41,911 bases of DNA from positions 1 through 41,911 of the forward strand of contig CALMLW010000061.1 of assembly GCA_937868015.1 (NCBI GenBank), read 5' to 3'. The notes beneath the pieces were generated by a model that saw only the letters and a list, made by a program, of their open reading frames with translations, searched no databases and was not told the origin of the DNA. A program made the position numbers and the translations under genes. Position 1 is the stretch's first letter. Every line of letters starts with the position of its first letter. This DNA is from an uncultured Synergistaceae bacterium (GTDB taxonomy: Bacteria; Synergistota; Synergistia; Synergistales; Aminiphilaceae). Below, in pieces: positions 9,978 to 37,231 of this stretch.

Positions 9978-12900
9978 CTATTTAAAAAGGGTGTCCAGCA
10001 CGGCGTCCTTGATGGCATCCTCCAGATTCGGCGCCGCCGTGGGCTCCGCTTCCACGGGGGCTTGCCCTTCTTCAGGAGATGGCTTGGGGCCCTCGGGCAA
10101 AATGCCGTCGGGAAGGGGCACCTCGATGCCCCCCGGCAACGAGATGGTCTTCTCCGGCGCCGGAGCGGGCTTCTCGGGGGAGGGAGACGCGCCGTCCCCT
10201 TGCCCGGGAGCCTTCGACTCCACCTGCAGGTCAGATATCTTGGGGCTCGCCGCCCTTCCCCCCACCTTGAGGCTCACGGCGCGAAAATCCTGCTTCGCCC
10301 CTCCGTCGGCAAAGCCCTTCAGGGCTCCTTTCAGGATGTCTTTCACCGAGGCTCCCCCTCCGATGCCCTCCAAAAGCCCCCCCTGCACTCCTCCCGTGAG
10401 GGCGTTGAGCACCTGGGCATTCACGACGCCCTTCACCGCCAGGTTCAACTTACCCTCGGGCCCCACGGTGCCCTGGGCCTCGAGGCTTCGGTAAAGGGGA
10501 TCCCCCTCCCAGGGCACCGCCTTGGTGCCCTCCTGCAAGGTCAGCTGGGCCCCCTGTACCGAGAAGGGAGCCTTGAGGAGCTGGTAGCGTACCCCGGAAG
10601 CCCCGTGCAGGGTGGCGACGAGGTTCACCCAGGGATAACCCGTCACGGCTCCTTCCCGGGATTGGAACAACCCCTTCCCCGAGAACTCTCCCTTGAAGGC
10701 GTTGCCCTTGCCCTTGAAATCCACGGTGGCGGTACCCCCTACGGTCCCCGAAGCTTGGGAGAGGGCCCGCAGGGTGGCCCCCAGGTCCACCTCGGCCAAA
10801 GCGGCCTGGAGCTCCCATCCTCCGGTGCCCAGGTTCATGCGGAGCCCCAGAGCGGCGTCTCCCCCGTGGAAGAGGGCCTTGATCGCGGGGGCCGCCAGGA
10901 CGTTTTTCTGCACGGAAAAGGGCGCTTTCACCCCCGTGGCGCTGAGCCCCAGGAAGCCCACCCGCTCCGAAGTGAGCTCCCCTGACCCCTCCAGGGCCCC
11001 CGGGGTTCCCTTCAGGAAAAAACGGAGGTTCATCTTGCCCTGAATCCCCTTGTCCCGAAGGGCGGGGACCCGCCGGAGCAGGGAGGCCAGATCCAACCCC
11101 TCCCCCGAGCCCTTAAGGTCCAGGGCGTACCCCTGGGGTCCGGGGCGCATCATCCCCGAAAAGGAGAAGGGGGTCCCCTCCACCGCGCCTCGGGCGGAGG
11201 TAAGGCGGATTTCTCCCGGGGTTCCCTCCAGGGACACCGAGGCGTCCGCCAGGGCGGCCCCCTCCACCGTCACCGTGGGGAAGGTGGCGTCCAGGGCGAA
11301 GCGCGGAGCCGCCAAGCCTCCCCCCAGGGAAAAATTCACGGTGCCCTGTCCCCCCAAGGCGACGGGAAGGCCCAGATCCTTGCCCAGGGCCCCCAACCCC
11401 AGATCCCGGATCGATCCCTTGAAATCGAGCGCGCCCTCCTCTCCGGCCCTTTCCGGCAGCTTCGCCGTCCCCGAAAGCGCCAGGGAGCCCCCCGCGATCC
11501 TCCCTTCCCCCCGCTCCACCACGAGGCGGTTTCCCTCGGCGCGGAGGGCGAGGGTCGGGCGATCCACCCCCGCCCCGGCCCAGGCCAGGCGCGCCGCCCG
11601 GAGGGTCAGGGGGCCTTCGAGGGCGGGCTTTCCTCCCGTCACCCGCCCCGATCCCCGGATTTCCAGGTCGCTCACCCCCAGCTGATCCAGGGCCCGCAGG
11701 CTCTTCCAGGAGAGGGCGGCCTCCACCAAGATCTTTTCCGGCGAGCCACTGGCCTTCCAGCTCAGCGTCCCCGTCCCCTTGACCCCCGATCCCTTCAGCG
11801 CCGGGAAGGCCCCGGCAAGGTTTTCCAGCGCCAGGGCTTCTCCTTTGCCCTTTAGGTCTAGGGTCACCCCTTTGCCCCCGAGCCCCCCCACGCTCCCCGA
11901 GGCGGAAAAAACGCCCCCTTTCCAGGTGAGGGATGCGGCGTTCACCGCCAGGGTGTTCCCCCGGAGGGCAAATTTGACCACCGGCTTGCTCAGCGTCTCC
12001 CCCGCCAGAATGATCTGGGGGGCGGAGACGATTCCCGAAATCTGGGGCGCTCCGGGATCCCCCTTGAGGGTCACCGCCACGCTCGCCTCTCCCCGGGGTT
12101 TGAGCTCCCGGAGCTCGGGGAAAAGGGCCTCTAGACGGGCCAGATCCAGCCTGGTCGCCTTAAACTCCAAATTCATGTCTATTTTCTTCCCCCAGGACGC
12201 CGTGCCGGAGAGGGTCAGGGGGGAGCCGAACCCCTGGGCCCGGGCGGCGACGTGGAAGGTCTTTCCATCGCGGAGCTTCACGTCCGCCGCCACCTGCTCC
12301 AGCTTATGCCCCCGGCCGCTCAGGGAGGGGGCCACCAGGGTCATCCGACCCTCCAGGGCGGAGCCCGATCCCTTCAGATCCAGGGAGATCTTTTCCACCA
12401 TCCCCTGAAGGTCCCCCAGGGCGGGGAAGGCCTGGGCCACCTGGGCAAGATCCCCTTTGGCGCCCCTCATCTGAAGCGCCACGGTGGGGGGCAGGTTGCG
12501 CAGGCCCAACGCCAGGGTGCCCCGCAGTGAGGCGCCGAAGACCGAGGCCTCGATCCCGGCGACTTTGAGCAGGGCGGGGGTGAAGGAAAAACGCCCCGAG
12601 GCCCGGTCCACCGTCACGCCGGAGAACTTTCCCCCTTCCAGGGTGGCGTCCCCCGAGATCCGGGGGTTCTTCCAGGTGCCCCCGCTCTGGATCGCCAGGG
12701 AAAGCCTTCCCCGAAGGGCCCCCTCGGTCTCGGGCCAAAGGGCTCCCACCTCCGATCCCTCGAGGCCCTCCACGGTGCCCCACAGCCCCAGCTCGGGGAG
12801 CACGCTCCCCTGGAGGAGAACCTTCCCCTGACCCACGCGAAGATCCAGCTCTGCCACGGCCAGGGCGTCCCCTTGGAACGCGAGCGTCCCCTTCCCCGAA

Positions 12901-13436
12901 AGGGATAGGGGGGTCTTGCCGGGACCCTGCCATCGCCCGTCGAGCTCCAGGGCCACCGTCGATCCCCCCAGGGAGATCCTCGCCCGGGAGGCCAAAAGCG
13001 TCCCGGCGGGGGTGGTGAGGACGCTGTCCGAAAAGGTCACCCGACCCACCAGCGAGCTCCCCCCGCCCCCTTCGCCCTTGATCGTGGCAAAAAACCTCCC
13101 CAGGCGGTCGGCATCCCCCCGGGCCCCCGCGATCTCCACGTCGGAGATGATGGCCCCCCCGCGCAAGAAGGCCAAAAGAGACACCGCCAGAGAGATCCGG
13201 TCCGCCTCAAAGAGGGTCACGCCGTCTTTTTCCAGGGCCACCCGGGTCACCGTGTACCCCCGCAGGGGGTTTCCCGTCACGTCCCCCAGAAGAAGTTCGC
13301 CCCCCAACGAATCCCGCACGGCGGACTGGGCCTGGTCTTTCACCAGATCCGTGGCTCCGTCGACGAAAAACACCCCGCCCACCACGACCGCGAGCAGAGC
13401 ACCGATGACCAACCCCACCACTTTTTTCCGCGCCAT
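9978..13436 (-). CDS. AsmA/TamB-like large envelope protein
   Basis: A 1152-residue protein with one N-terminal membrane helix (about residues 7-27, VVGLVIGALLAVVVGGVFFV) and a very long, repetitive beta-rich body. The segment LFEADRISLAVSLLAFLRGG followed by ISDVEIAGARG is the recognisable N-terminal AsmA/TamB pattern. The body repeats short Gly-rich strands of the kind L-x-G-x-G-x-L throughout. The last 90 residues are Pro/Glu-rich, ending in a short helix (AIKDAVLDTLFK). In diderm bacteria such proteins span the periplasm and move phospholipid or help outer-membrane assembly; whether this one does either is inference. The start is ATG 13436 (complement) after AAGGAGG. It is transcribed away from the efflux operon, with a shared 323-base upstream region. 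Family membership is secure; subfamily is not. Confidence 0.8.
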   Translation of the reverse strand: MARKKVVGLVIGALLAVVVGGVFFVDGATDLVKDQAQSAVRDSLGGELLLGDVTGNPLRGYTVTRVALEKDGVTLFEADRISLAVSLLAFLRGGAIISDVEIAGARGDADRLGRFFATIKGEGGGGSSLVGRVTFSDSVLTTPAGTLLASRARISLGGSTVALELDGRWQGPGKTPLSLSGKGTLAFQGDALAVAELDLRVGQGKVLLQGSVLPELGLWGTVEGLEGSEVGALWPETEGALRGRLSLAIQSGGTWKNPRISGDATLEGGKFSGVTVDRASGRFSFTPALLKVAGIEASVFGASLRGTLALGLRNLPPTVALQMRGAKGDLAQVAQAFPALGDLQGMVEKISLDLKGSGSALEGRMTLVAPSLSGRGHKLEQVAADVKLRDGKTFHVAARAQGFGSPLTLSGTASWGKKIDMNLEFKATRLDLARLEALFPELRELKPRGEASVAVTLKGDPGAPQISGIVSAPQIILAGETLSKPVVKFALRGNTLAVNAASLTWKGGVFSASGSVGGLGGKGVTLDLKGKGEALALENLAGAFPALKGSGVKGTGTLSWKASGSPEKILVEAALSWKSLRALDQLGVSDLEIRGSGRVTGGKPALEGPLTLRAARLAWAGAGVDRPTLALRAEGNRLVVERGEGRIAGGSLALSGTAKLPERAGEEGALDFKGSIRDLGLGALGKDLGLPVALGGQGTVNFSLGGGLAAPRFALDATFPTVTVEGAALADASVSLEGTPGEIRLTSARGAVEGTPFSFSGMMRPGPQGYALDLKGSGEGLDLASLLRRVPALRDKGIQGKMNLRFFLKGTPGALEGSGELTSERVGFLGLSATGVKAPFSVQKNVLAAPAIKALFHGGDAALGLRMNLGTGGWELQAALAEVDLGATLRALSQASGTVGGTATVDFKGKGNAFKGEFSGKGLFQSREGAVTGYPWVNLVATLHGASGVRYQLLKAPFSVQGAQLTLQEGTKAVPWEGDPLYRSLEAQGTVGPEGKLNLAVKGVVNAQVLNALTGGVQGGLLEGIGGGASVKDILKGALKGFADGGAKQDFRAVSLKVGGRAASPKISDLQVESKAPGQGDGASPSPEKPAPAPEKTISLPGGIEVPLPDGILPEGPKPSPEEGQAPVEAEPTAAPNLEDAIKDAVLDTLFK

Positions 13437-24946: not shown

Positions 24947-25771
24947 ATGTATGAAGTTTTTTCCATGTGGGGAAAGACCAAGATGGTGGTGCTGGTGGCC
25001 CTCTGTGCCGGTCTTTACGCGGCGCTCCTGATTCCCTTCAAGGGGTTCGTGCTCATTCCCGGGGTCACGGAGTTTCGCCCCGCCAGCGCCCTGCCGGTGG
25101 TCATGGGGCTCCTCTTCGGCCCCGCCGGGGCCTGGGGGTCCGCCATCGGCAATCTCATCGGGGACTTCTTCGGCTCCCTGGGCATCGGCAGCCTCTTTGG
25201 CTTCGTGGGGAACTTCTTCTTCGCCTACGTGCCCTACAAACTCTGGATCAACCTGGGGCTCGTCCCTTCCCAGGACCGGGAGCCCCATCCCACCTCCAGG
25301 CGCAAGGTCGTGGCCTATGTGGTGGTGAGCTTTCTCGGGTCGGCGGGATGCGCCCTGCCCATCGCCTGGGGGCTGGAACTTCTGGGTATGGTGCCCTTCG
25401 GCGCCCTGGGAAGCATCATCGTGTTGAATAACACCATCCCCGCCGTGGTCCTGGGCCTGCCGATCCTCACGGTGCTCTACCCCCGCATCAAGAAATGGGA
25501 CCTGCTCTGGACCGACATCATGGACGAGCACGAAATTCCCGTGGGGGGCGCCATGTCCCTCATCGGAGGTTTTTTCATGACGCTCAGCATTCTCTTGGGC
25601 ATGGCAGGAGGCTTTCTGGCGGCCTCCCGAGCGGGTCAGGGTCTTCTGTACAGCGGCTTCGGCGCCGGGGGCATCGTGGGATCCCTCGGGGTGGTGCTGG
25701 TGGCGGGCATCGGTACGGCCGGACTGGTGCTATCGTCTTTCATCCAGTCCATGCCTCCCAAGAAGCGCTGA
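24947..25771 (+). CDS. ECF transporter S component, QueT-like
   Basis: A 274-residue membrane protein, likely the substrate-binding S component for the two genes before it. The segment FRPASALPVVMGLLFGPAGA followed by WGSAIGNLIGDFFGSLG is the recognisable S-component pattern seen in QueT and related transporters. About six helices fit the S-component core. An extra C-terminal part with two hydrophobic helices (GGAMSLIGGFFMTLSILLGM; GIVGSLGVVLVAGIG) makes it longer than typical S components of about 180-200 residues. The start is ATG 24947 after AAAGGGG. The substrate is unknown: queuosine precursors are suggested only by resemblance, and no preQ1 or TPP riboswitch was recognised in the operon leader. 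Confidence 0.78.
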   Translation: MYEVFSMWGKTKMVVLVALCAGLYAALLIPFKGFVLIPGVTEFRPASALPVVMGLLFGPAGAWGSAIGNLIGDFFGSLGIGSLFGFVGNFFFAYVPYKLWINLGLVPSQDREPHPTSRRKVVAYVVVSFLGSAGCALPIAWGLELLGMVPFGALGSIIVLNNTIPAVVLGLPILTVLYPRIKKWDLLWTDIMDEHEIPVGGAMSLIGGFFMTLSILLGMAGGFLAASRAGQGLLYSGFGAGGIVGSLGVVLVAGIGTAGLVLSSFIQSMPPKKR

Positions 25772-25834: not shown

Positions 25835-25918
25835 GAGGGCACTTCGGGGAGCCCCGGCGGATAACCCCCGGCGGCGTCCCCTTTCGAGAAACGACACTCC
25901 CCCCCGAGGAGGCATGCC

Positions 25919-28714
25919 ATGGAGCCCCAGGACGTGCTGAAAACGGTGAGATCTCTGGCCCACCTCGACCTCTCCCGGATGGACGAAGGAACCCGGGAGC
26001 AGGTGGCCAGTGTCCTCACCTTCGCCCTGGAGAGCCTCCGCAAGGACTGGCTCTCCCCGGAGGAAGGGGCCCAGGAGCTTCGGGTGAGCCCCCGCCGCTT
26101 CCGGGCCATTCTGAAGCGCTACCAGATCCTGGAGCAGCAGCGTCTGGCCCTGGAGAACATCGAACGAGAAGAGGAACGCTTTATCGACACCATCCGGGAG
26201 CTTACCCCCTCTCCATCGGAGGGAGTTTCCGGGACTCCGGCGATGGTCTCCGCCCCGGAGGAGCCGGACCCCCTCCCCCGGGCCTCCGGAGGGAACGACG
26301 CCCCCCCGGAGGAGGCTAGCCCCTCTCCCGAAGAAACCCCGGCGGAAGGGAAAAGGGCCCCGCAGCCCGCCGCGCCTGCGGAGGGAACGCCGCCAGCGGA
26401 GATCGTCGAGGAAGCCCCCGAAACTTCCCCTTCATCGGAGGACCCGGAGGAAGACCCCTTCACCGATGCCCCCTCGGAGGGCCCTTCGGAGGCGGAAAAG
26501 TACTTTTCCCTGGAGGAGGAGAGCGCCCAGATGGCCCAGGCGCTCTTTGCCGCCGTCCAACACTCCTACGACGATGAGCTCCGAAGGTTGCGCCTGGCGG
26601 TGGAACGCCTTTCCTCCGACGGCGCCAGCCACCGGCATCAGTTCACGGAGCGCCTCGAAATCATGAACGATGCCTACCACAAGGCTCTGGATTCCCTGGT
26701 GGCCCGGGCCACCGAAGAGCGCCACCGGGGAGAGGAGTTCTTTTCCTCCCGGTGCGAGGACTTCGCCCGCTCCGTCCACATCACCGCCGCGAATCTCCGG
26801 GAAGAAAACGCCGTGTTGCGAAACAAATTCGCCTCGGCCCTCCGGGAGTGGACCGAAGAGAACGACGCCCTGCGCCATAGGTTCGCCGCAGCCCTTCAGG
26901 AATGGATCGAGGACAAGGAACGCTATGCCCTCGCCCTTCGGGAAAGCGCCGATCGATGTCGCCTCCTGGAAGAGCGGATGGAGACCCTGCGACAGGAGGG
27001 CCTTGCCGCCCGGGGAGAGGACCGCGCCCGCCAGGAGGCCCGGGAGGCCCAGATCGACCAAACCCTGGGGACCCTGGAGGAGCGGTGGCAGGAAGCCCGG
27101 GGAGCAGCGGAAGAGCTGAACCGCCGCTTGGATCGGGAGACGGCGGAGCTCGGACGTCGTATGGACCAAGGGACGGCGGAAATGAGCCACCGCCTGGAGC
27201 AGAGCTCCGCAGAGCTAAATCGCCGCCTGGAGCAGGAGACGGCGGAGCTCCGCCAGCGCCTGGACCAAGGGCAAGGGGATATCGCCCAGCGGGTGGAGAC
27301 CCTGCGACAGGAGGACCGAGCCGCTGGCAAAGAGGAACGGCGGCGTTTCGAGGAAAAAAACGCCCTGGCCTTGGAACGGCTCCGGAAGGAGGCCGAGGAC
27401 GCCCTGCGGGGCCACCGGCAATCCCTCCGGGAAGAGATGGACGCGCTGCGATCCCACCAGCAAGAGGAGCTCCAGGCCGCCCTAACCCTGGTGGCCGGAG
27501 AAAACGGCCGTCTGATGGAAGAAATGGACCGGCGACAGCGCGAGGCGGGAGAGCTCTGGGACCGGGAGATCTCCCGGAACCACGCCGCCCTGTCCCAAAA
27601 GATCCAACACCTCGCCCAAGACCTGGGGGCCCTCCAGGAAAGGTCTCAGACCCGCGAAGCGGCGTGGCGCCTCCAGGACGATGCCCTGCAGGGCGCCGTG
27701 GAAGACCTACGAAAAGAGATGGCCCGCTTTCAGGCCCAACTCATCGCCCGAGAGAGCGATCGAGACGGAGCGATGGCCGAAGAGGGACGGCGCCGGGAAG
27801 AGGAGCTGCATCGCTCCCTGGAAGAGGCCCTCCAGGACGTGCGCCGTCGCATCGATGCCGGGGATCAGCTCCGGGAGGAACGTCACGGCCAGATGGAGAC
27901 GCGCTGGAAGGCATTTTTGGAGGAGACCTCCAGGGAAACGGCCCGGCAGGCGGAAGCCATCGCCCGCATCCGGGAGGAGAAGATGAGCTCCAACGTGGAA
28001 ATCGCCAAGTCCCAGCAGTTCCAGGGTCAGATGCTAAAGATGATCAAAACGGATCTCATGGCCCTTTCCTCGGAGGCGAAAAAGGACCTGGCCCAACTGA
28101 AAGAGCGCTGCGTCCACCTGGAAAGGCATCGGACAGGAGAAGAGGGGCGCTTTGCCGGGGAGATCGCCGCCGTGGAACGCCGCCTGGCGGCGGTGGACGC
28201 CCTGAAGTCCGCCCTGCAGGGCGAGGTCCAAAAGCGGGAAGTGCTGACGGAGGAGATGGACCGACTGGGGCGCTATCAACAGGGCCTCTCCCAGGACCTC
28301 CAGGACCGGGAACGGCGGGAGGCAGAGGAGCGAGACGCCCTGGCCAAGGCCACGGCTCAACTGGCCGAAACGGTGGAATCTTTCCGGGACAAGGGGGAAG
28401 CCCTGGAACGGGAGGTAGCTCTGCATCGCAAGGCCCTGGGGAAGGACTTCGACGCCCTTCGGGAGAGCTGGAAGAGGATGGGGCAAGAGCTGGCGCTCCA
28501 GCAGAAGACCTTCGAGAGGGGCCTCGACTCCCTCCGGCAGGAGGGGCTGGACCGACAAGCCGAGGAGCGACACCGCCGGGAGGAGCTGGCCTCGGAGCTC
28601 CGGTCCGCCCTGGGGGCCATGGCGGACCATGTGGAAAAACTTCGGGTCTCTCAGGCTCCGCCCCCCCCCAAGGGGGCCATCGATTGGCTCTTCGGAGAAA
28701 AACCCCGGGAATGA
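25919..28714 (+). CDS. Large coiled-coil protein with N-terminal HTH-like segment
   Basis: A 931-residue protein I cannot assign to a named family. The N-terminal ~90 residues are helical, shared at the very start with the next gene (MEPQDVL...). They include a helix-turn-helix-like stretch, LSPEEGAQELRVSPRRFRAI (about residues 43-62). Residues 100-195 are a Pro/Glu/Ser-rich disordered region. From about 195 to 910 it is almost unbroken coiled coil, rich in Glu, Arg, Gln, Leu and Ala. It holds six successive 11-residue repeats at 399-464 (ELNRRLDRETA, ELGRRMDQGTA and so on). The C-terminus is a short Pro-rich hinge and a hydrophobic tip, IDWLFGEKPRE. There is no signal peptide or membrane helix, so it is probably cytoplasmic. 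The start is ATG 25919 after GAGGAGG. A scaffold, cytoskeletal or chromosome-organising role is only a guess. Confidence 0.85.
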   Translation: MEPQDVLKTVRSLAHLDLSRMDEGTREQVASVLTFALESLRKDWLSPEEGAQELRVSPRRFRAILKRYQILEQQRLALENIEREEERFIDTIRELTPSPSEGVSGTPAMVSAPEEPDPLPRASGGNDAPPEEASPSPEETPAEGKRAPQPAAPAEGTPPAEIVEEAPETSPSSEDPEEDPFTDAPSEGPSEAEKYFSLEEESAQMAQALFAAVQHSYDDELRRLRLAVERLSSDGASHRHQFTERLEIMNDAYHKALDSLVARATEERHRGEEFFSSRCEDFARSVHITAANLREENAVLRNKFASALREWTEENDALRHRFAAALQEWIEDKERYALALRESADRCRLLEERMETLRQEGLAARGEDRARQEAREAQIDQTLGTLEERWQEARGAAEELNRRLDRETAELGRRMDQGTAEMSHRLEQSSAELNRRLEQETAELRQRLDQGQGDIAQRVETLRQEDRAAGKEERRRFEEKNALALERLRKEAEDALRGHRQSLREEMDALRSHQQEELQAALTLVAGENGRLMEEMDRRQREAGELWDREISRNHAALSQKIQHLAQDLGALQERSQTREAAWRLQDDALQGAVEDLRKEMARFQAQLIARESDRDGAMAEEGRRREEELHRSLEEALQDVRRRIDAGDQLREERHGQMETRWKAFLEETSRETARQAEAIARIREEKMSSNVEIAKSQQFQGQMLKMIKTDLMALSSEAKKDLAQLKERCVHLERHRTGEEGRFAGEIAAVERRLAAVDALKSALQGEVQKREVLTEEMDRLGRYQQGLSQDLQDRERREAEERDALAKATAQLAETVESFRDKGEALEREVALHRKALGKDFDALRESWKRMGQELALQQKTFERGLDSLRQEGLDRQAEERHRREELASELRSALGAMADHVEKLRVSQAPPPPKGAIDWLFGEKPRE

Positions 28715-28772
28715 GAGGGGAAAAACCCGCCTCGCCCCGGCCTCTTTTCCATTTCGCCCCAGGAGGCATGCC

Positions 28773-29735
28773 ATGGAACCCCAGGACGCCCTCAATCGCA
28801 TAAAAGAGCTGGCCCGCCAGGACCCCACCCTGTTAAACGACGCCACGGGGGAGCGGATGGCCCACCTCTTGGCCTTCGTGCTCCGGGAATCGCAGCCGGG
28901 ACGCCCCATCGCCTCCCTGGCGGAGGGCGCCTCCGGGGGAGGAGAACGCTCCCCCGACTCCCCCCCACCCACCGTGGAAGAGGTCCTATCCCTCCTCCGC
29001 CGGGAGCAGGCCCTGAGAAGGGCTCCCCTGGCCCCGGGGAAGGAGGGAGAACGGCCCCGCCCCGGAGCGGGGGCCCCCTTCGATGCCCCGTCCCGCATCG
29101 TCGCCCTGGAGGACGCCTTTCGCACCCTCCGGGAACAGACCGCCGTGGCCCTGGAAGACCTCCGCCAGGAGTCGCGCCAGGCCCTCCACTCCCACGCCAA
29201 GCAGATCTCCCACCGCCTGGGCGACCTCCAGCGGGAGGCCGCCGGGCAACACATGACGATCCTATCCCGTTTCGTCGCGCTGGAGGCCCGCCTGGAGGAC
29301 CGATCTCACCGGGAGCTCCACCTCCACGAGCTCGTGGCCGACCAACGGAACGACCTGGAGGCCCTGATGGCCCTGGTGGTGGAGGAGGGCAAGGCCCTCC
29401 GACGGGAGATGGGCCAGGCCATCCCCCCGAAGGACCAGATCCCTCCCCGGGAAGAGACCTCCCCGGCCCCGGGGGGCGTGCCCCCGGAGAAAGACCCCCT
29501 CCCCGTCGATCCCCGAAGCCTTTACCAAGACCTGCGGCGCGACCTGAGGGAGACCCAGATCCTCGTCGCCCGATACCACACCCGCCTCACCCGAGAGCTG
29601 GTGACCCTGCGACGATCCGTGGAGGACTTGGAAGGGCGCCTGGGGCGCCGGGACGACCCCGCCCCCCTTTCGGAAGATCCCCTCCCTCCGGCGCCGCCCC
29701 CTCGGAGGCTTCTGGAGCCCCGGCGGGAAGGGTGA
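28773..29735 (+). CDS. Coiled-coil protein, short paralogue of the preceding gene
   Basis: A 320-residue protein of unknown function. Its first ~45 residues align with those of the previous protein (MEPQDALNRIKELARQDP against MEPQDVLKTVRSLAHLDL; then AHLLAFVLRES against ASVLTFALES). The DNA around both starts is nearly identical: AGGAGGCATGCCATGGA then CCCCAGGACG. The centre (about residues 105-215) is coiled coil (RIVALEDAFRTLREQTAVAL). A Pro-rich spacer, a second short coiled coil (about 245-290) and a Pro/Arg-rich tail follow. Start ATG 28773 is chosen by the conserved ribosome site; the frame open from 28629 overlaps the previous gene. There is no membrane segment. The spacing of 58 bases suggests one transcript with the larger paralogue. 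Confidence 0.85.
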   Translation: MEPQDALNRIKELARQDPTLLNDATGERMAHLLAFVLRESQPGRPIASLAEGASGGGERSPDSPPPTVEEVLSLLRREQALRRAPLAPGKEGERPRPGAGAPFDAPSRIVALEDAFRTLREQTAVALEDLRQESRQALHSHAKQISHRLGDLQREAAGQHMTILSRFVALEARLEDRSHRELHLHELVADQRNDLEALMALVVEEGKALRREMGQAIPPKDQIPPREETSPAPGGVPPEKDPLPVDPRSLYQDLRRDLRETQILVARYHTRLTRELVTLRRSVEDLEGRLGRRDDPAPLSEDPLPPAPPPRRLLEPRREG

Positions 29736-29758: not shown

Positions 29759-30526
29759 TCAGGGAGGCCCCGGAGAAAAAGCCTCGGGTTCCAGGGCCTT
29801 TTCCGTGAGAAACTTCCAGTATCGTTCCGGAATGAAGTGCTTCTGCAGCCGGGAATTGCGGCGATGTTCCACCGTGATGATCTCGAAGTATCGCTGCCAG
29901 AGGCGCCGGTAATCCCTTTCCCCCTCCGAAACGACCTTCAGGGCCCTCCGGGGGGCTTCCACCCCCCGGAGCTCGCCCCCTTCGCCGCACACCGCCTTGC
30001 CTCGCCCCACGTCGTGCAGCATCCATCGCTCGCCAGAAAGACGCGGGATGAAAAGAGGGCCCAGGAGCTCCAGCACGTCGTATCGGGGCGCCAAGGGGGC
30101 GTAGAGCACCCCCTGGAGGGGCTCGAACCGCGCCAATCCCGAGAGGCGGTGGACTTCCCTCAGGACCGCCCGCCGCGCCAGGTGCACGGAGCTCACCCGG
30201 GGATCTCCCCTCTGGAGGAAGAAGGCGGGCCCCTCCCGTCGCCCCAGGTCTAGGTAGCGCCAGAGGTGCCACGCCATACGAGGCCTCTCGGAGAGAAAAG
30301 CCACCATGACGGTGTCGAAGGTCCGGTCCCCCAGGCGGCGCCGCACCGCCCGGGCGAAGGCCTCCGCCTTCTTTTCGTCCGAGGGAACGAAGGCCGGAGA
30401 AAAGAGCGTGCCCTGGGACCCTTCTCCCTGTACCACCACATCGTCGGGAGTCTCTTGCCGCTGAAAAATCTCGGCGTAGGTGGACAGCAACCCCTCAAAG
30501 GAGCCGTCGAAGGCCCAGAGGGCCAT
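29759..30526 (-). CDS. DUF4130 / TIGR03915-type partner of the radical SAM DNA-repair protein
   Basis: A 255-residue protein matching the family described as a SAM-associated putative DNA metabolism or repair protein. The N-terminus ALWAFDGSFEGLLSTYAEIF is the family opening. ERPRMAWHLWRYLDLGRREG and the block FEPLQGVLYAPLAPRYDVLE are recognisable. The C-terminus RYWKFLTEKALEPEAF is also typical. The start is ATG 30526 (complement), one base beyond the TGA of the radical SAM gene, so the two are co-translated; the longer frame to 30712 runs into that gene. Known: this family nearly always sits beside the radical SAM protein, and its C-terminal part resembles uracil-DNA-glycosylase-like domains. 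Not known: the lesion or substrate. Confidence 0.88.
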   Translation of the reverse strand: MALWAFDGSFEGLLSTYAEIFQRQETPDDVVVQGEGSQGTLFSPAFVPSDEKKAEAFARAVRRRLGDRTFDTVMVAFLSERPRMAWHLWRYLDLGRREGPAFFLQRGDPRVSSVHLARRAVLREVHRLSGLARFEPLQGVLYAPLAPRYDVLELLGPLFIPRLSGERWMLHDVGRGKAVCGEGGELRGVEAPRRALKVVSEGERDYRRLWQRYFEIITVEHRRNSRLQKHFIPERYWKFLTEKALEPEAFSPGPP

Positions 30527-30527
30527 G

Positions 30528-31856
30528 TCACGCCCCTCCGGCGGCCACCGGATCACGCCGATCAGGAAAAGCCATCGCAGGGAACAGGGCCTCCGGCCCC
30601 CTCTTGGCTTCCCCCGCGTCGGCAAAGAGGGAGAGCTGGCGCCCCCAGGGGCTTTCTTTCCCATCGCCGATGCGGGGGCGCAAAAACGCGGGGTCCATCG
30701 TTCCCCCGCCACAGTGCCGGCCGTTGGCCATCAAGAAGTACCGGGCCCTCTTCATCACCACCCCGAGGCGAGGGAGGGCCAGCGCGTCCAGGCGGCGCTC
30801 CCGCCGGGCCGCCACGATGCGCTTGGCGGATTTCACCCCCACCCCGGGCACCCGCAGGAGCATCGCCAGGGGGGCGGTGTTGACCTCCACGGGGAAGAGA
30901 TCCAGGTGGCGCAGCGCCCAGGCCGCCTTGGGGTCGAGGTCGCCCTCGTACCGGGGGTGCGCCTCGTCCAGAAGCTCTTCGGCGGAAAAACCGTAGAACC
31001 GCAGGAGCCAATCCGCCTGATAGGTCCGGTGTTCCCGGCGGAGGGGGGGCGCCACGATGGGGGGAAGACGGTCGTCCGCCCCCACGGGGACGTAGGCGGA
31101 GTAGTACACCCGCCGCAGGGCGTAGCGGCGATAGAGCCCCTGGGCGAGGCGCAGGATCTGGAGATCGCTGTCTTCCGTGGCCCCCACGATGAGTTGGGTG
31201 CTCTGCCCTGCGGGGACAAAAAGGGGGGCCCGGGGAGATCGGGCCCGGTCCTCCTCCGCCTCTTTGATGTGCTCGGCGAGAAATCCCATGGGGCCCAAAA
31301 TCCCCTCCCGGGTCTTGGCGGGGGCCAGGCGCCGTAGCCCCGCCTCGGTGGGGAGCTCGATGTTGACACTCATGCGGTCCGCCAGGCGCCCCAGGCGGGA
31401 CACCAGCTCCGAAGAGGCCCCGGGGATGGCCTTGGCGTGGATGTATCCCCCGAAGGCATGGGTCCCCCGGAGCAAAGAAACGGTGCGGAGCATGAGCTCC
31501 ATGGTGGCGTCGGGACTTCCCACCACCCCGGAGCTTAAAAAAAGCCCCTCGATGTAGTTTCTTCGGTAGAAATTTATCGTGAGCTCCGCCAGCTCCTCGG
31601 GGGTGAGGGTGGCCCGGGGGGCGTTCCCGCTGGCTCGGTTGGCGCAGTAGGCGCAGTCGTAGACGCAGGCGTTGGACTGGAGGATCTTGAGCAGGGAGAT
31701 ACACCGCCCGTCGTCGCTCCAACTGTGGCACACGCCGTAAAACGACGCCGCCCCCATCCCCCCCTCCGTCCCCCGGCGGGAAGATCCGCTCGAGGCGCAG
31801 GAGGCGTCGTACCGGGCCGCCGCCCCCAGGATCTCCACCTTCCGCGCCAGATCCAT
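30528..31856 (-). CDS. Radical SAM protein of the putative DNA modification/repair type (TIGR03916)
   Basis: A 442-residue radical SAM enzyme. The [4Fe-4S] motif is CVYDCAYC (Cys-64, Cys-68, Cys-71, spacing CxxxCxxC), preceded by the family signature around HSWSDDGRCISLLKILQSN. The middle contains NIELPTEAGLRRLAPAKTRE, typical of this group. A helix-hairpin-helix near residues 333-350 (LLRVPGVGVKSAKRIVAARR) implies nucleic-acid binding. The start is ATG 31856 (complement) after AAAGGGGGG. It is third in a four-gene minus-strand unit behind two EFR1-type electron-transfer proteins and directly upstream of its DUF4130 partner. Radical SAM enzymes need a low-potential electron donor; the neighbouring flavodoxin/ferredoxin fusions are plausible donors, which is inference. 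Confidence 0.92.
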   Translation of the reverse strand: MDLARKVEILGAAARYDASCASSGSSRRGTEGGMGAASFYGVCHSWSDDGRCISLLKILQSNACVYDCAYCANRASGNAPRATLTPEELAELTINFYRRNYIEGLFLSSGVVGSPDATMELMLRTVSLLRGTHAFGGYIHAKAIPGASSELVSRLGRLADRMSVNIELPTEAGLRRLAPAKTREGILGPMGFLAEHIKEAEEDRARSPRAPLFVPAGQSTQLIVGATEDSDLQILRLAQGLYRRYALRRVYYSAYVPVGADDRLPPIVAPPLRREHRTYQADWLLRFYGFSAEELLDEAHPRYEGDLDPKAAWALRHLDLFPVEVNTAPLAMLLRVPGVGVKSAKRIVAARRERRLDALALPRLGVVMKRARYFLMANGRHCGGGTMDPAFLRPRIGDGKESPWGRQLSLFADAGEAKRGPEALFPAMAFPDRRDPVAAGGA

Positions 31857-31877: not shown

Positions 31878-32663
31878 CTACCGCCCACTCCAGGCGAGAA
31901 AGCGCTCCGGGGAGACGGCGGGATGATGATAGCGATGGCGCCGGAGGGATGTGGTGGAGTTAAACTGCACCGCATGGACCGGACACCAGTGAAAGCAAGC
32001 CATACACTGGGTGCACCGCCCCATCCACCGGGGAAGGCCCTCCTCCCCCTGCTCCACGTTCCCCACGGGACACAAGGCCACACAGCGGCCGCACCGTACA
32101 CAGGAAGAAGTGGCGTAAAAAGACCGGTCCTTCGCTCCCACGGAAGCCAAGGCCGACCCGTTGGCCCAGCGAGAAAGCCACTCCATCGAGCTCCCCCCAG
32201 GTCTCTTTTCCCGTCGATTTCGGAGGTCTTCGACGATCCCTTCCAGGACCCCGTCGGCGCGATCCACCATGCGCCGGAGCTTGCCCCCCGAAGGAGAATC
32301 GTGAAGCGGCGAGTAATTTCCGGGCATCTTCACGTGAAACCCCCCCCGCACCCTCACGCCCCTCTGGGCCAGAAGGCCGACCCCCTGGGCCGCCGCCCCC
32401 AGGGGCCCCCCGCCGCTGGTGACGATGAGGTAGACCCAGCTCTCGGGGTCTACGGAAAGGCCCTCGATAAAGCGGTGTACCACCGCTGGGGCGCCGAAGG
32501 CATGTACCGGATAGCATATCCCCACGCTATCCCCCGAGGCCTCCGTCTCCTTGTCCTGGGCCAGGGCCATGTTGATCAGACGGGCACCCCCCAGCCCCTC
32601 TCCCACCCTCTCGGCCGCGTGCAACGTGTTCCCCGTACTGGAAAAAACGTAGATCTGATGCAT
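31878..32663 (-). CDS. EFR1-type ferredoxin (flavodoxin-like domain plus two 4Fe-4S clusters)
   Basis: A 261-residue fusion. The N-terminus is a flavodoxin-like fold with an FMN phosphate loop, YVFSSTGNTLHAAE, and later SVGICYPVHAFGAPAVVHRF. The C-terminus carries two 4Fe-4S motifs: CVRCGRCVALCPVGNV and CTQCMACFHWCPVHAV. It is a soluble electron carrier. Two adjacent ATGs are possible (32666 and 32663, complement); 32663 is seven bases after GGGGAGG and is preferred. It lies 21 bases upstream of the radical SAM gene and 65 bases downstream of a paralogue with the same architecture. The frame that remains open to 32915 enters that paralogue and is not coding. Confidence 0.88.
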   Translation of the reverse strand: MHQIYVFSSTGNTLHAAERVGEGLGGARLINMALAQDKETEASGDSVGICYPVHAFGAPAVVHRFIEGLSVDPESWVYLIVTSGGGPLGAAAQGVGLLAQRGVRVRGGFHVKMPGNYSPLHDSPSGGKLRRMVDRADGVLEGIVEDLRNRREKRPGGSSMEWLSRWANGSALASVGAKDRSFYATSSCVRCGRCVALCPVGNVEQGEEGLPRWMGRCTQCMACFHWCPVHAVQFNSTTSLRRHRYHHPAVSPERFLAWSGR

Positions 32664-32728
32664 CATGACCCCTCCCCTTCCATGCCTGGAGAGTTCTCTT
32701 TCCGGAGCAACATCGCCCCCCGAGCCCC

Positions 32729-33565
32729 TTATATCCCCCCGACATCCCCCGGGAAAGGCCCCTCCTCCCGCCGGGACACCCGGAAGGGCTTTTTGCGAAA
32801 GCCCCCCCGCATCTCCCCCAGGGAAACCCCGGGGTGATGGTAGGGCTCCCCTCCCCAGGGAAAGCGCCCCACCCGGATCGCCCCGACGGGGCACCAAGCA
32901 TAGCAGGCCCCGCACCCCTCACAAGAACCAAGCCACCGGGGACGGTGCATACCGTCCATGACGATATTTTCCACCGGACAGACCTCTCGACAGGTCCCAC
33001 ACCCCGTGCAATGCCCCTCCGCCCGGAAGGGAAGGCGCCGACGCCGGGCCAAAAGCCCCTCGTGAAAAAGATCGGTGACCCAGGAAAAGGCCCCCTCGAT
33101 CCCTCCCCCCCGGCGCTCCCTCACCGCCTCGGCCACCGCCGCCGCCGACTCCTCCTCCCGGGCCAGCCGCCCCTCCGGACGCCGGGCGAAGATCCCCCCC
33201 AGACGGGGAGGAAAACCGGAAGGCATGGCCACGGAAAAGACCGCGTCCAGGGCCACCCCCTGTTCCCGGAGGATGCGGGCCCCCTGGCGCCCCGCGCCAA
33301 AGGGCCTACCCCCGTGGGTCAGGAGAAGATAGCTCCAGGCTCCCCGTCGCAACACCACTTTGGCGAGGAAGGACTTCACCAGAGATGGCAGCCCCCCCGC
33401 ATAGACCGGCGAGGCGATCCCCACCGTGTCCCCCTGGGCCAGGACTGCGGCGTCGTGCCGGAGCCCGGACAAAAAGACGAGCTCCGCGTCCCCCAGGAGC
33501 TGCCCCGTGCGCTTCGCCAGGTGCCACGTGTTGCCCGTGCCGGAAAAGACAAAGATTTGGTGCAC
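32729..33565 (-). CDS. EFR1-type ferredoxin, paralogue of the next gene
   Basis: A 278-residue protein with the same build as its neighbour: flavodoxin-like N-terminus (FVFSGTGNTWHLAKRTGQLL; TVGIASPVYAGGLPSLVKSF) and a C-terminal pair of 4Fe-4S motifs (CTGCGTCREVCPVENI; CEGCGACYAWCPVGAI). The start is GTG 33565 (complement), reading MHQIFVFSGTGNT, after GAGAGGGGGG; the frame open to 33925 has no family-like sequence upstream. Both paralogues end in a similar His-His-Pro plus aromatic/basic tail, so they arose by duplication. It is first in the minus-strand unit leading to the radical SAM and DUF4130 genes. Two carriers for one enzyme might reflect different redox partners. Confidence 0.87.
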   Translation of the reverse strand: MHQIFVFSGTGNTWHLAKRTGQLLGDAELVFLSGLRHDAAVLAQGDTVGIASPVYAGGLPSLVKSFLAKVVLRRGAWSYLLLTHGGRPFGAGRQGARILREQGVALDAVFSVAMPSGFPPRLGGIFARRPEGRLAREEESAAAVAEAVRERRGGGIEGAFSWVTDLFHEGLLARRRRLPFRAEGHCTGCGTCREVCPVENIVMDGMHRPRWLGSCEGCGACYAWCPVGAIRVGRFPWGGEPYHHPGVSLGEMRGGFRKKPFRVSRREEGPFPGDVGGI

Positions 33566-33668
33566 CCATTCCCCCCCTCTCCACCGCGCCCCCCCCAAAG
33601 TCCCGTCATCGCAAGGTCCCCTTTCGCCGCCCTCCGCCGAGGCTCCGGGGCGGCCTTTTCCCCTGCGC

Positions 33669-33694
33669 CCCCCGAAAGCTTCGGGGGATTTTTT
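33669..33694 (+). terminator. Plus-strand Rho-independent terminator with no gene behind it
   Basis: CCCCCGAA (33669-33676), loop AGC, TTCGGGGG (33680-33687), then A and six T residues (33689-33694). It faces plus-strand transcripts, but the four genes to its left are all on the minus strand and the nearest plus-strand gene upstream ends at 29735. Confidence 0.75.
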
Positions 33695-33787
33695 CGTTGT
33701 CCCCGGCCATTTTACTCCATCTCCTCCGGAGGGAGGCCCCCCTTTCCGAAAAAGGGATACGAAAGCCGAACGAGACCCATCTTCTTG

Positions 33788-33816
33788 TTGCCAAAGCAGG
33801 AAGGTTTTACTATAGT
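33788..33816 (+). promoter_or_regulatory. Near-consensus sigma-70-type promoter
   Basis: TTGCCA (33788-33793, five of six), a 17-base spacer and TATAGT (33811-33816, five of six). It precedes the secreted-protein gene at 33900, implying a leader of about 78 bases. Confidence 0.8.
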
Positions 33817-33899
33817 AGGCCCGTTCCCCCGGGGACAGGGCATAAGAGGGATACGACCCAAGGCCCCTCCGGAGGACAATCAGACGGGAGGTGTATAAT

Positions 33900-35534
33900 A
33901 TGAATTCAATCAAAAGGAGATCCATCGGCGCGGTCTTATTGCTTTTGGTCGCCGCCCTGTGGGCCGGAGGCGCCCTGGCCGAGGAACGCTACCAACCGGC
34001 GGACGCCATCGGCCCCTGGAGCGATGAGTCCTTCCACATGGCGGGAAATGTCTCCGACGTCCAAAAACTCGTAAAAAGCATCGTCGAATCCCCCTTGCTG
34101 GCCCTGGATCCTTCCTCCCAGGAGGGAATCCAGGCCTTGAGTGCCGTGAACGCCATGTACCCCGTGGAGGGCTTTGCCTTCGGGGTGGGGATGCAAAAGA
34201 GCGTCCTGCGCCTCCAACTGGCCGTCTCCGTAGGGCCCGCCCGGGCGGATCTCTTGAGCCGCATCGCCAAGGGAGCCATGATCAGCGAAGACCTGGAGCT
34301 TTTGACCCAGTTCGGGGTCCCCGTGGAAGGTCCCCTCTCCCTGGAGGACGGGACGACGGCCTATCGAGTCCCCCTGGAAGGGACCCCCTTCGCCCTGCAT
34401 TTCGCCGCCCAGGGCAACCTCTTCCTCCTGGGCTTCCGCCCCGAAGACCTTCAGGAGTCCGTGGCGGCCCTAAAGGACCCCGCCCAACGCTTCGCCCCCC
34501 AGCGCCACTTCCCCGACTCCCCGAACTACTTCCTGTTCCGGGACAACGGCCTGCTCCAGATCGCCCTTATGGCCGCCGAAGTCCCCTACCTGCTTCGGGA
34601 CAACGTGCTCATGGAGTTCTCCTGCGCCGTGAAGGAGAACCAGTGGTCCCTGGGAATCTTCACCAACCTGGCCCGGGCCCTCTTCTCCCCCAAGGCCCTG
34701 GAAGCCTTTAAGAGCCTCTCCTCTCCCCTGCCGCTCCTCGGAGGGGGCAAGGTCCTGGGGGCCTTCCATTTCTCCGAAGACTACGATCACCTCAAGAGCG
34801 TGCTGCAAAACAACCCCGACGAAGAGGTGCGGGATGGCTTCGAAGAGTTCCTGCAGGGCGTACAGGAGATGGGCCTCTCCGAGGAAACCCTGAAAAGCCT
34901 CCTCACGGGCTCCGTGGGGGCCGTGCTCGGTGGCACCGCCTCCTTTGCCTCCGCCCCTCTTCCCGGGGCCTATCTGGTCTTCGAGGGCCAGGGCGACGGC
35001 GCCAAGACCGTGGCGGATCTTCTGGTGAAGACCCTCCAGGCCCAGGAGATGCCCCTGGCCCCCGTGACCATCCCCGGATGGGACGCGGTGTACGGCATGC
35101 CCCTGCCCGTCACCCTCACCATAGCTCATCGGGGCTCCACCTTGCTGGTGGGCCTTTTGGACGCCAACCAGCTCGCCACTCCGGCGGAAGGATCCCCTCG
35201 GCTCCAGGAGCTCCAGGGAGACGCCTCGCTCTACAACTACCTCTACATCGATAACGAAGCTCTGCAGAAGGAGCTCCTCACCTTCCTCAAAGGGGCGGAC
35301 ATCTGGAGATCCATCCTGGAGGACGGGATGGACGAAGTCGGCGCCGCCATCGTCCAAGCCCACGCCTTCATCGCCACGGTTCAGGACCTGGTGGTGAAGT
35401 GCTCCGGCCTGGAAAAGGGCTCCATCGACCTGAACTTCTTCGCCCCCGACGGCGCCCAAGAGGCGGAGTGGGAGAAAATGAAGGGTTCCTGGGGAGCGCC
35501 CCAGGGGGAGGAGCCCAAACCGGCTTCCAACTGA
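33900..35534 (+). CDS. Secreted protein of unknown function
   Basis: A 544-residue protein with a clear signal peptide (MNSIKRRSIGAVLLLLVAAL... cleaved after GGALA). The start is ATG 33900, seven bases after GGGAGGTG; an in-frame GTG at 33891 overlaps the ribosome site. The mature part is alpha/beta-like with no cysteine-rich or repeat pattern. Features include MYPVEGFAFGVGMQKSVLRL, FLLGFRPEDLQESVAALKD, LPLLGGGKVLGAFHFSEDYD and AYLVFEGQGDGAKTVADLLV; the layout resembles DUF3352-like secreted proteins in which a beta-strand/helix unit is repeated, but this is weak. There is no LPXTG, no Synerg-CTERM and no membrane anchor, so it is probably periplasmic. It has its own strong promoter and a 14-bp terminator, so it is likely an abundant single-gene transcript. 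Confidence 0.85.
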   Translation: MNSIKRRSIGAVLLLLVAALWAGGALAEERYQPADAIGPWSDESFHMAGNVSDVQKLVKSIVESPLLALDPSSQEGIQALSAVNAMYPVEGFAFGVGMQKSVLRLQLAVSVGPARADLLSRIAKGAMISEDLELLTQFGVPVEGPLSLEDGTTAYRVPLEGTPFALHFAAQGNLFLLGFRPEDLQESVAALKDPAQRFAPQRHFPDSPNYFLFRDNGLLQIALMAAEVPYLLRDNVLMEFSCAVKENQWSLGIFTNLARALFSPKALEAFKSLSSPLPLLGGGKVLGAFHFSEDYDHLKSVLQNNPDEEVRDGFEEFLQGVQEMGLSEETLKSLLTGSVGAVLGGTASFASAPLPGAYLVFEGQGDGAKTVADLLVKTLQAQEMPLAPVTIPGWDAVYGMPLPVTLTIAHRGSTLLVGLLDANQLATPAEGSPRLQELQGDASLYNYLYIDNEALQKELLTFLKGADIWRSILEDGMDEVGAAIVQAHAFIATVQDLVVKCSGLEKGSIDLNFFAPDGAQEAEWEKMKGSWGAPQGEEPKPASN

Positions 35535-35565
35535 CCTCTATCAATTAACGGGATGGCCATCAAGA

Positions 35566-35604
35566 AAGCGGGACCCCCTTCTTCCGAGGGGGTCCCGCTT
35601 CTTT
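35566..35604 (+). terminator. Strong terminator after the secreted-protein gene, probably bidirectional
   Basis: A perfect 14-bp stem: arms 35566-35579 (AAGCGGGACCCCCT) and 35587-35600, with a 7-base loop, then CTTT. It lies between convergent genes; on the minus strand the stem is followed by CTTGAT, so it may also end the EamA/SMR-like transcript. Confidence 0.88.
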
Positions 35605-35633
35605 GCGGCGCTGGGACCACGACCGACCGGGCC

Positions 35634-36002
35634 CTATCCCCCGATGGAGATCACCACGATGCCCAGCAAAATGGCGCCGATGCCCCCCAGGCGCACCCCG
35701 TCCAGGCGCTCCCGGAACCAGAGCACCGACGCCAGAAGCACCATGAGAAAGGACAGGCTCGTGCAGAGGGGATAGGCCACCGAGAGATCCATGCGGGTCA
35801 GAAGGGCCGCGTAAAAGACGAAGGAGAGGACATAGGCCCCCATGCCCACCAACGAGCAGGGATTGAACAGGATGTTTTCCACCATGCCCCGGAGCCCCGG
35901 CGCCTGGGATCGGGGCTTTTGGGCCCCCTGTTTGAGCAGCACGTGGGCCCCCGCATTGGCGATGATGTCCCCCGCCAGGAGAAAGACCAGGACCGCATCC
36001 AT
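35634..36002 (-). CDS. Small EamA/SMR-like transporter
   Basis: A 122-residue membrane protein with four hydrophobic helices, the size of a single EamA or SMR unit. The last part, YPLCTSLSFLMVLLASVLWF then RERLDGVRLGGIGAILLGIV, matches the conserved end of drug/metabolite-transporter family units. The first helix contains GDIIANAGAHVLLKQGAQ, as in EamA-like small exporters. The start is ATG 36002 (complement) after AAGGGAGG. It lies 60 bases downstream of the AEC transporter gene on the same strand and is probably co-transcribed. Such short proteins act as dimers. The substrate is unknown. Confidence 0.88.
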   Translation of the reverse strand: MDAVLVFLLAGDIIANAGAHVLLKQGAQKPRSQAPGLRGMVENILFNPCSLVGMGAYVLSFVFYAALLTRMDLSVAYPLCTSLSFLMVLLASVLWFRERLDGVRLGGIGAILLGIVVISIGG

Positions 36003-36062
36003 GACGAACCTCCCTTTCGTTTTTCGCCTTGGGCGGGGGAAGCCCCCTTGCCCCTTCCGTCC

Positions 36063-36992
36063 CTATCCCATCCCCAGGACGCCCATCCACAGGGGAAGGG
36101 TCCCCACCGACAGGACGGTGGATACCGCGATGAGCTCCGCCGTATAGGGGGCATCCATCCCCATGCCCTCGGCCACCACAAAGGTGTTCACCGCCACGGG
36201 CATGGCCGCCACGATCACCACCACCTGCTCCATGAGGGGCGCCACGGGCCAGACGCGAAAGAGGGCCCACACCGCCAGGGGGTGGAGCACCAGCTTCACC
36301 GAGACATCCCTCCAGGAGTGGCGCAACCCCCGCCAGAACCTCTCCGGCCGCAGCGAGGCCCCCAGGGTGATCAGGGCCAGGCCGCTGGCCACGTCCCCCA
36401 CGATCTTCAGCGTCACGTCCAGCTCCTGGGGCAGGGCCTTCACCCCCAGGAGGGAGAGTCCCATGCCCGCCGCAGAGGCCTGCACCAGGGGATTGCGGAT
36501 CACCCCCCGACCCATCTCCTTCAGGGCTCGGAGGGTGAGCTCCCCCGAGAGGGCGAGCTGGGCCCATCCGATGGAGATCATGTGGTACCCCACGAAGCTC
36601 AACCCCAGGAAAAGCGACAGGGCCTCCAGCCCCGGCTCTCCCAGGGCCAGGCCGATGGCGGGCACCCCCATGAAGATATTATTCGACCGAACGGCGGAAA
36701 GCACCGACACCCCCAGGCGCTCCCGGGGCTCCCGAAAGGGGAGGGCCAGGAGCCAGGCCAGGGCAGGCACCAGGAAAAAACCCACATGACAGGCGGTGAA
36801 GAGGTGCAGATGATCCATGGGGGCCGCCCCCGCCCGGAGGATGGATCGAAAGAGCCATGCCGGAAGCGCCACGTAAAAGAGCAGGCGGTTCATCCGGAAC
36901 GTCACGTCCCCCTCCAGCATTCCCCGACGACGAAGAAAATACCCCAGCGCCATGACGATCACCAACGGAGAAACCATGCGCAGGCCGTTCAT
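36063..36992 (-). CDS. AEC (auxin efflux carrier) family transporter
   Basis: A 309-residue inner-membrane transporter of the AEC/BASS-like superfamily with about ten helices in two halves. Family marks include [18 protein letters not shown] and [19 protein letters not shown] at the start, [18 protein letters not shown] in helix 4, [15 protein letters not shown] and the second-half [15 protein letters not shown] and [18 protein letters not shown]. The family includes malate and other organic-anion carriers in bacteria; the substrate here cannot be read from sequence. The start is ATG 36992 (complement); only a G-rich tract (GGGGGGAC) stands before it as a ribosome site. An extended -10 promoter lies about 80 bases upstream. 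Confidence 0.92.
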
Positions 36993-37070
36993 TTTGTCCC
37001 CCCAGGATCATCTTTCCCCCGCCACCCGGAGCGCCATCAGGCCGCGCCCGGCGAGGGACCGCCGGGGGCC

Positions 37071-37079
37071 ACTATAGCA
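37071..37079 (-). promoter_or_regulatory. Extended -10 promoter candidate for the AEC/EamA pair
   Basis: On the minus strand this reads TGC-TATAGT, an extended -10 with five of six to TATAAT. The -35 region is G-rich and unlike consensus. It lies 79 bases before the AEC start codon. Confidence 0.55.
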
Positions 37080-37231
37080 TATCTTTCCCCGCCCCACCCA
37101 GAGGGCGTGAAAATCGGCGAAAAAACTCCCCCCACCGAGGAGCTGTAGTAGAATACGGGGGTAACCCCGGGAAGGCCCGGCCCTCTCGGGAAGGCGCCCC
37201 CTAAAGGGGCCAAAAAAGGAGGGCGATCACA

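Follow-up and report, generated by a model that had tools for sequence, protein, structure and literature searches.

We found that an uncultured Synergistaceae bacterium carries a pair of adjacent genes, A and B, that is real, unusual and narrowly distributed. The two genes open with the same start block and with related N-terminal modules, and A then continues through an HTH-like segment and an acidic linker into a very long coiled coil. By analogy with KfrA/KfrC or with RacA/RocS, we tentatively favour a reading in which A would be a DNA-binding coiled-coil tether or scaffold and B would be its partner through the shared module. The stretch of DNA that we studied (the window) is one whole contig of 41,911 nucleotides, from an assembly of 2.44 Mb that is 83.8% complete.

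A and B are real tandem genes

Gene A (25919-28714, plus strand) encodes a protein of 931 residues made up of an N-terminal module, an HTH-like segment, a linker and a coiled coil. Gene B (28773-29735, plus strand) starts 58 bases downstream of A and encodes a paralogue of 320 residues that has the N-terminal module and lacks the HTH segment; all coordinates given below for parts of A and B are on the plus strand. GC content at the three codon positions is 0.76/0.44/0.79 in A and 0.80/0.49/0.85 in B, which is the pattern of genuine genes here, and A and B are real genes in tandem. An overlapping open reading frame of 633 residues on the same strand has a shifted pattern (0.77/0.78/0.43) and is therefore spurious; for a minus-strand frame at 28034-29254, codon-position GC alone is insufficient for rejection. 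The spacing, which is the sole ground for this reading, suggests that A and B are probably co-transcribed as one two-gene unit. We recognised no sigma-70 promoter for the pair. KfrA-type proteins bind an operator in their own promoter region; upstream of A, we saw no conspicuous array of operator repeats.

A and B share a start block and an N-terminal module

The ribosome site and start of A (25907..25934; AGGAGGCATGCCATGGAGCCCCAGGACG) are repeated at the start of B (28761..28788). As the earlier note had observed, the two genes have this block (AGGAGGCATGCCATGGARCCCCAGGACG) in common, with 27 of 28 bases identical, and the six-base spacer from the ribosome site to the ATG is the same in both. 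Further upstream, from –40 to –21, just 5 of 20 bases agree and the two sequences are unrelated. The first 15 bases of the block (AGGAGGCATGCCATG) have two exact copies in the assembly of 2.44 Mb, and one further copy is found when one mismatch is allowed. The block has no match in Rfam. A palindrome, GGCATGCC, lies between the SD and the ATG and is present in 4 copies in the window as compared to 1.3 expected (at least 4 copies in 4 of 100 shuffles); 2 of the 4 copies lie elsewhere, and we did not find the palindrome compelling as an operator between the SD and the ATG.

The likeness continues into the proteins. Residues 1-45 of A (25919..26053) and residues 1-40 of B (28773..28892) form a shared module of two predicted helices, which span residues 3-14 and 23-43 in A and residues 3-16 and 27-39 in B. 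Over residues 1-37, 15 of 37 residues are identical (41%; BLASTP E=1e-5 in a single comparison). The similarity survives when the first six residues are dropped: residues 7-40 alone score Z=5.7, and none of 100,000 shuffles was as good. Past approximately residue 40, A and B share just generic coil and proline-rich similarity. By sequence comparison, then, the N-terminal modules of about 40 residues are homologous and the proteins diverge after them, which agrees with the paralogy and divergence that had been proposed. The simplest account of their origin is a tandem duplication of the start and head, joined to different tails.

A carries a candidate HTH after the module

Residues 46-70 of A (26054..26128) form an HTH-like segment with a net charge of +3, in which a predicted helix (residues 47-54) is followed by a turn and the start of a longer helix (residues 58-95). 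The Pfam profile HTH_23 matches the N-terminal piece of A with E=0.011-0.042, which is under the curated cut-off, and this weak match coincides with the segment to which the earlier note had pointed. In an AlphaFold single-sequence model of residues 1-99 (mean pLDDT 80), helices occupy residues 23-43, 47-54 and 58-95; the last of these continues towards the linker, and the model is all-helical with no wing. When the model was compared with known folds, the best E was not under 0.19: the RptR transcriptional repressor was on top of this non-significant list, which also held DnaA DNA-binding domains and, lower down, Spo0J/ParB. A second fold search, likewise non-significant, placed a phage HTH protein first, closely followed by a sigma-70 region 4 protein. 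Of the earlier claim, the segment and its predicted helices stand, and the profile and fold matches that would identify it stay below threshold. From the sequence and the model, an HTH in A is plausible.

A has a long proline-free coiled coil and no membrane span

Residues 96-190 of A (26204..26488) are an acidic Pro/Glu-rich linker with 24% Pro and a net charge of –19. The linker leads into a long, proline-free coiled coil of about 720 residues (residues 191-908; 26489..28642; the proline-free stretch measures 724 residues), in which the autocorrelation shows offsets of 7, 11, 14, 18 and 25, corresponding to heptads and hendecads, and periodicity is near 3.5-3.7 across most of the tail. Within the coil, an 11-residue (hendecad) unit of the type LNRRLxxxTAE is repeated five times in tandem at residues 400-454 (27116..27280). 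The protein ends in a PPPP linker and a hydrophobic tip, GAIDWLFGEKPRE (the Pro-WLFG tail; residues 909-931, 28643..28711). The tip reaches up to the 98th percentile of the 11-residue windows of A for hydrophobicity, and its hydrophobic moment is unremarkable, so that we saw no amphipathicity in it. In B, the head is followed by a proline-rich linker, a predicted continuous long helix (residues 105-214; 29085..29414), a proline-rich break, a predicted second helix (residues 247-292; 29511..29648) and a proline-rich tail. The maximum hydropathy over 19 residues is 0.57, and neither A nor B contains a stretch that could cross a membrane. The disordered Pro/Glu region, the more than 700 residues of coiled coil and the missing membrane anchor described in the earlier note are thus all borne out.

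This anatomy also suits a reading without any DNA role, in which the head would serve protein interaction or oligomerisation only and A and B would form a cytoplasmic coiled-coil scaffold or spacer, resembling a filament or polar scaffold. We consider this reading possible and rank it close behind the DNA tether. The long hendecad and heptad coil without a membrane span would fit such a scaffold, the HTH evidence is sub-threshold, and B carries the module without the HTH, implying that the module is useful without DNA binding. However, the HTH-like segment has a local charge of +3, and the predicted helix-turn-helix is precisely where the weak profile match lies.

A and B match no described family

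The earlier note knew of no described family with this build, and that statement held in four profile libraries and the PDB: neither A nor B has a convincing match in Pfam, NCBIfam, PHROGs or PADLOC, or any match by sequence in the PDB. Full-length A finds no Pfam family up to E=10, and A matches neither the Pfam families for KfrA, RacA and RocS nor those for the MerR-type winged HTH and RocS-like_C (DUF536). In NCBIfam, ZorA2 alone is returned for A (E=0.013). Such weak matches over the coil (also PADLOC E=0.0018), and the likeness of the coil of A to the long cytoplasmic coiled-coil tail of ZorA, would be expected if A and B belonged to an anti-phage or motor system. We regard this as very improbable: the NCBIfam score is 14 as compared to a cut-off of 700 and the match is confined to the coil, A is missing the MotA/TolQ/ExbB-like transmembrane domain as well as any membrane span, and no ZorB-like gene was recognised among the scanned neighbours. 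We therefore rejected the identification of A as ZorA.

The pair is narrowly distributed

To look for relatives, we used as homology queries the whole of A, its N-terminal 95 residues, a two-row profile of the module, residues 190-311, the C-terminal 261 residues of A, and B. These queries matched the pair itself or else short, low-scoring stretches. The best E outside the pair's own genome (6.7e-4, in one genome) belongs to a 55-codon frame containing stops, and at the loci that we inspected the stray matches are proteins of other build. In 187 further Synergistota genomes, among which the same genus is unrepresented, four different parts of A found no relative, and 100 further genomes of the order gave no convincing relative of B. 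No relative of A or B was found in plasmids and viral contigs, and none of the head of A in phages. Among GTDB representatives, A, the one protein scanned there, has no relative by exact back-translated patterns, which detect close relatives only. The earlier note, which had suggested an uncharacterised cytoskeletal, DNA-organising or scaffold system, had counted absence of the pair from all its relatives against that idea; the pair is present in 0 of the 187 other Synergistota genomes, none of them of the same genus, and this makes it an orphan, not a cytoskeletal system conserved throughout the phylum.

Relatives that lack A and B have conserved copies of the flanking genes, so the pair looks lineage-specific; beside the flanking blocks in these relatives, we found no A- or B-like gene and no hidden syntenic coiled-coil gene. 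These absences from Synergistota genomes, plasmids, viral contigs and (for A) GTDB representatives, together with flanks that persist without the pair, raise the alternative of a lineage-specific, fast-evolving orphan pair, possibly acquired horizontally, that has no general function and is kept or lost with its island. We consider this unlikely, given that in both A and B the frames and ribosome sites are intact and codon-position bias is normal.

Upstream of A lies a QueT-family ECF gene (24947-25771, plus strand) whose relatives, 69-81% identical, are in another family of the order; it was not found in three same-family genomes, and horizontal transfer of this gene is possible. Convergent with A and B are the adjacent genes for a TIGR03915 putative DNA-repair protein and a TIGR03916 radical-SAM protein (29759-31856, minus strand), which are also adjacent in the sister genus, with neither A nor B beside them. 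Next come two adjacent, partly overlapping frames that both match an EFR1 family ferredoxin model (31878-33925, minus strand) and two consecutive long frames of 547 and 531 residues without a Pfam or NCBIfam match (33891-37148, plus strand). A frame of 1152 residues (9978-13436, minus strand) has weak DUF748/YhdP similarity under curated cut-offs. The best-scoring match of the TyrRS on the same contig is in the same family (67%, genome G019), although another family reaches 66-69%, and for the rSAM gene, which has a relative on contig C45 of genome G018, identity to same-family genomes is 64-65%. On this evidence, a foreign contig in the bin is unlikely.

A proposed DNA tether, by analogy with KfrA/KfrC and RacA/RocS

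The DNA-tether reading draws on the start block and module that the two genes share, the weak HTH_23 match, the helices of the model, the fold matches, the proline-free coil, and the KfrA/KfrC and RocS precedents. Against it stand an HTH under the cut-off, a single-sequence model, fold matches with E not under 0.19, the failure to match the Pfam families of KfrA, RacA and RocS, the lack of recognised partition genes among the scanned neighbours, and the lack of relatives. At present, analogy is the basis for proposing a new cytoskeletal or DNA-organising system.

On the tether reading, the N-terminal module would be a head for self- and cross-association, and the small HTH that follows it in A would bind DNA. 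The acidic flexible linker and the coil would keep the head, bound to DNA, at a distance from a partner that may bind the WLFG tip; as a dimer, the coil would measure approximately 100 nm (about 0.15 nm for each of 718 residues). B, a head without an HTH, would join A as a regulatory or capping partner, and the pair, as a tether or filament, would organise or position DNA, with autoregulation possible. A more specific form, which we think improbable as a whole, is a chromosomal two-protein DNA tether or filament confined to a single lineage of Synergistota: the duplicated head would sit on an HTH and a coil of about 100 nm in one protein and on a short coil in the other, and the paralogue without an HTH would regulate or cap the assembly of its DNA-bound counterpart.

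The build of A and B is uncommon, though it has precedents in KfrA, RacA, pSK1 Par and RocS, which join an N-terminal HTH to a coiled coil. In RacA, pSK1 Par and RocS, an N-terminal DNA-binding HTH is followed by a central coiled coil and a distinct C-terminal part, which in RocS is an amphipathic helix (PMC11500499). The likeness of A to these proteins is looser than to KfrA and consists of the HTH-like segment, the coil and a distinct C-terminus. In contrast to A, in which the segment starts near residue 46 and no wing is predicted, their HTH is of the MerR-type winged kind and occupies the extreme N-terminus. RocS is also short, with domains that end at residue 163, and the tip of A is hydrophobic but not an amphipathic helix, so RocS-like membrane binding by A is not supported.

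KfrA, as described in excerpts of two articles, is a DNA-binding helical protein of broad-host-range plasmids that polymerises on DNA and forms complexes with helical KfrC; its types are poorly conserved in sequence, and KfrA of RA3 has about 345 residues (PMC7783346, PMC7821693). Set against these excerpts, A resembles KfrA in its long, uninterrupted helical coil with internal repeats, and B corresponds to the second helical protein. A differs in its length (931 as compared to about 345 residues) and in its added N-terminal module and acidic linker, and, apart from the missing Pfam KfrA match, A and B lie in a chromosome-like neighbourhood where we recognised no partition genes among the scanned neighbours and instead saw an ECF transporter together with a DNA-repair pair in convergent orientation. 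The two proteins also have a homologous head in common, a relation that the excerpts do not mention for KfrA and KfrC. If A does not bind DNA, A and B are one more orphan coiled-coil pair. If A does bind DNA, the duplicated start block would offer a simple example of the origin of two-component scaffolds, and the pair would represent a KfrA-like tether whose evolution took place outside plasmids, with a coil of unusual length and, as its partner, a paralogue bearing the same head.
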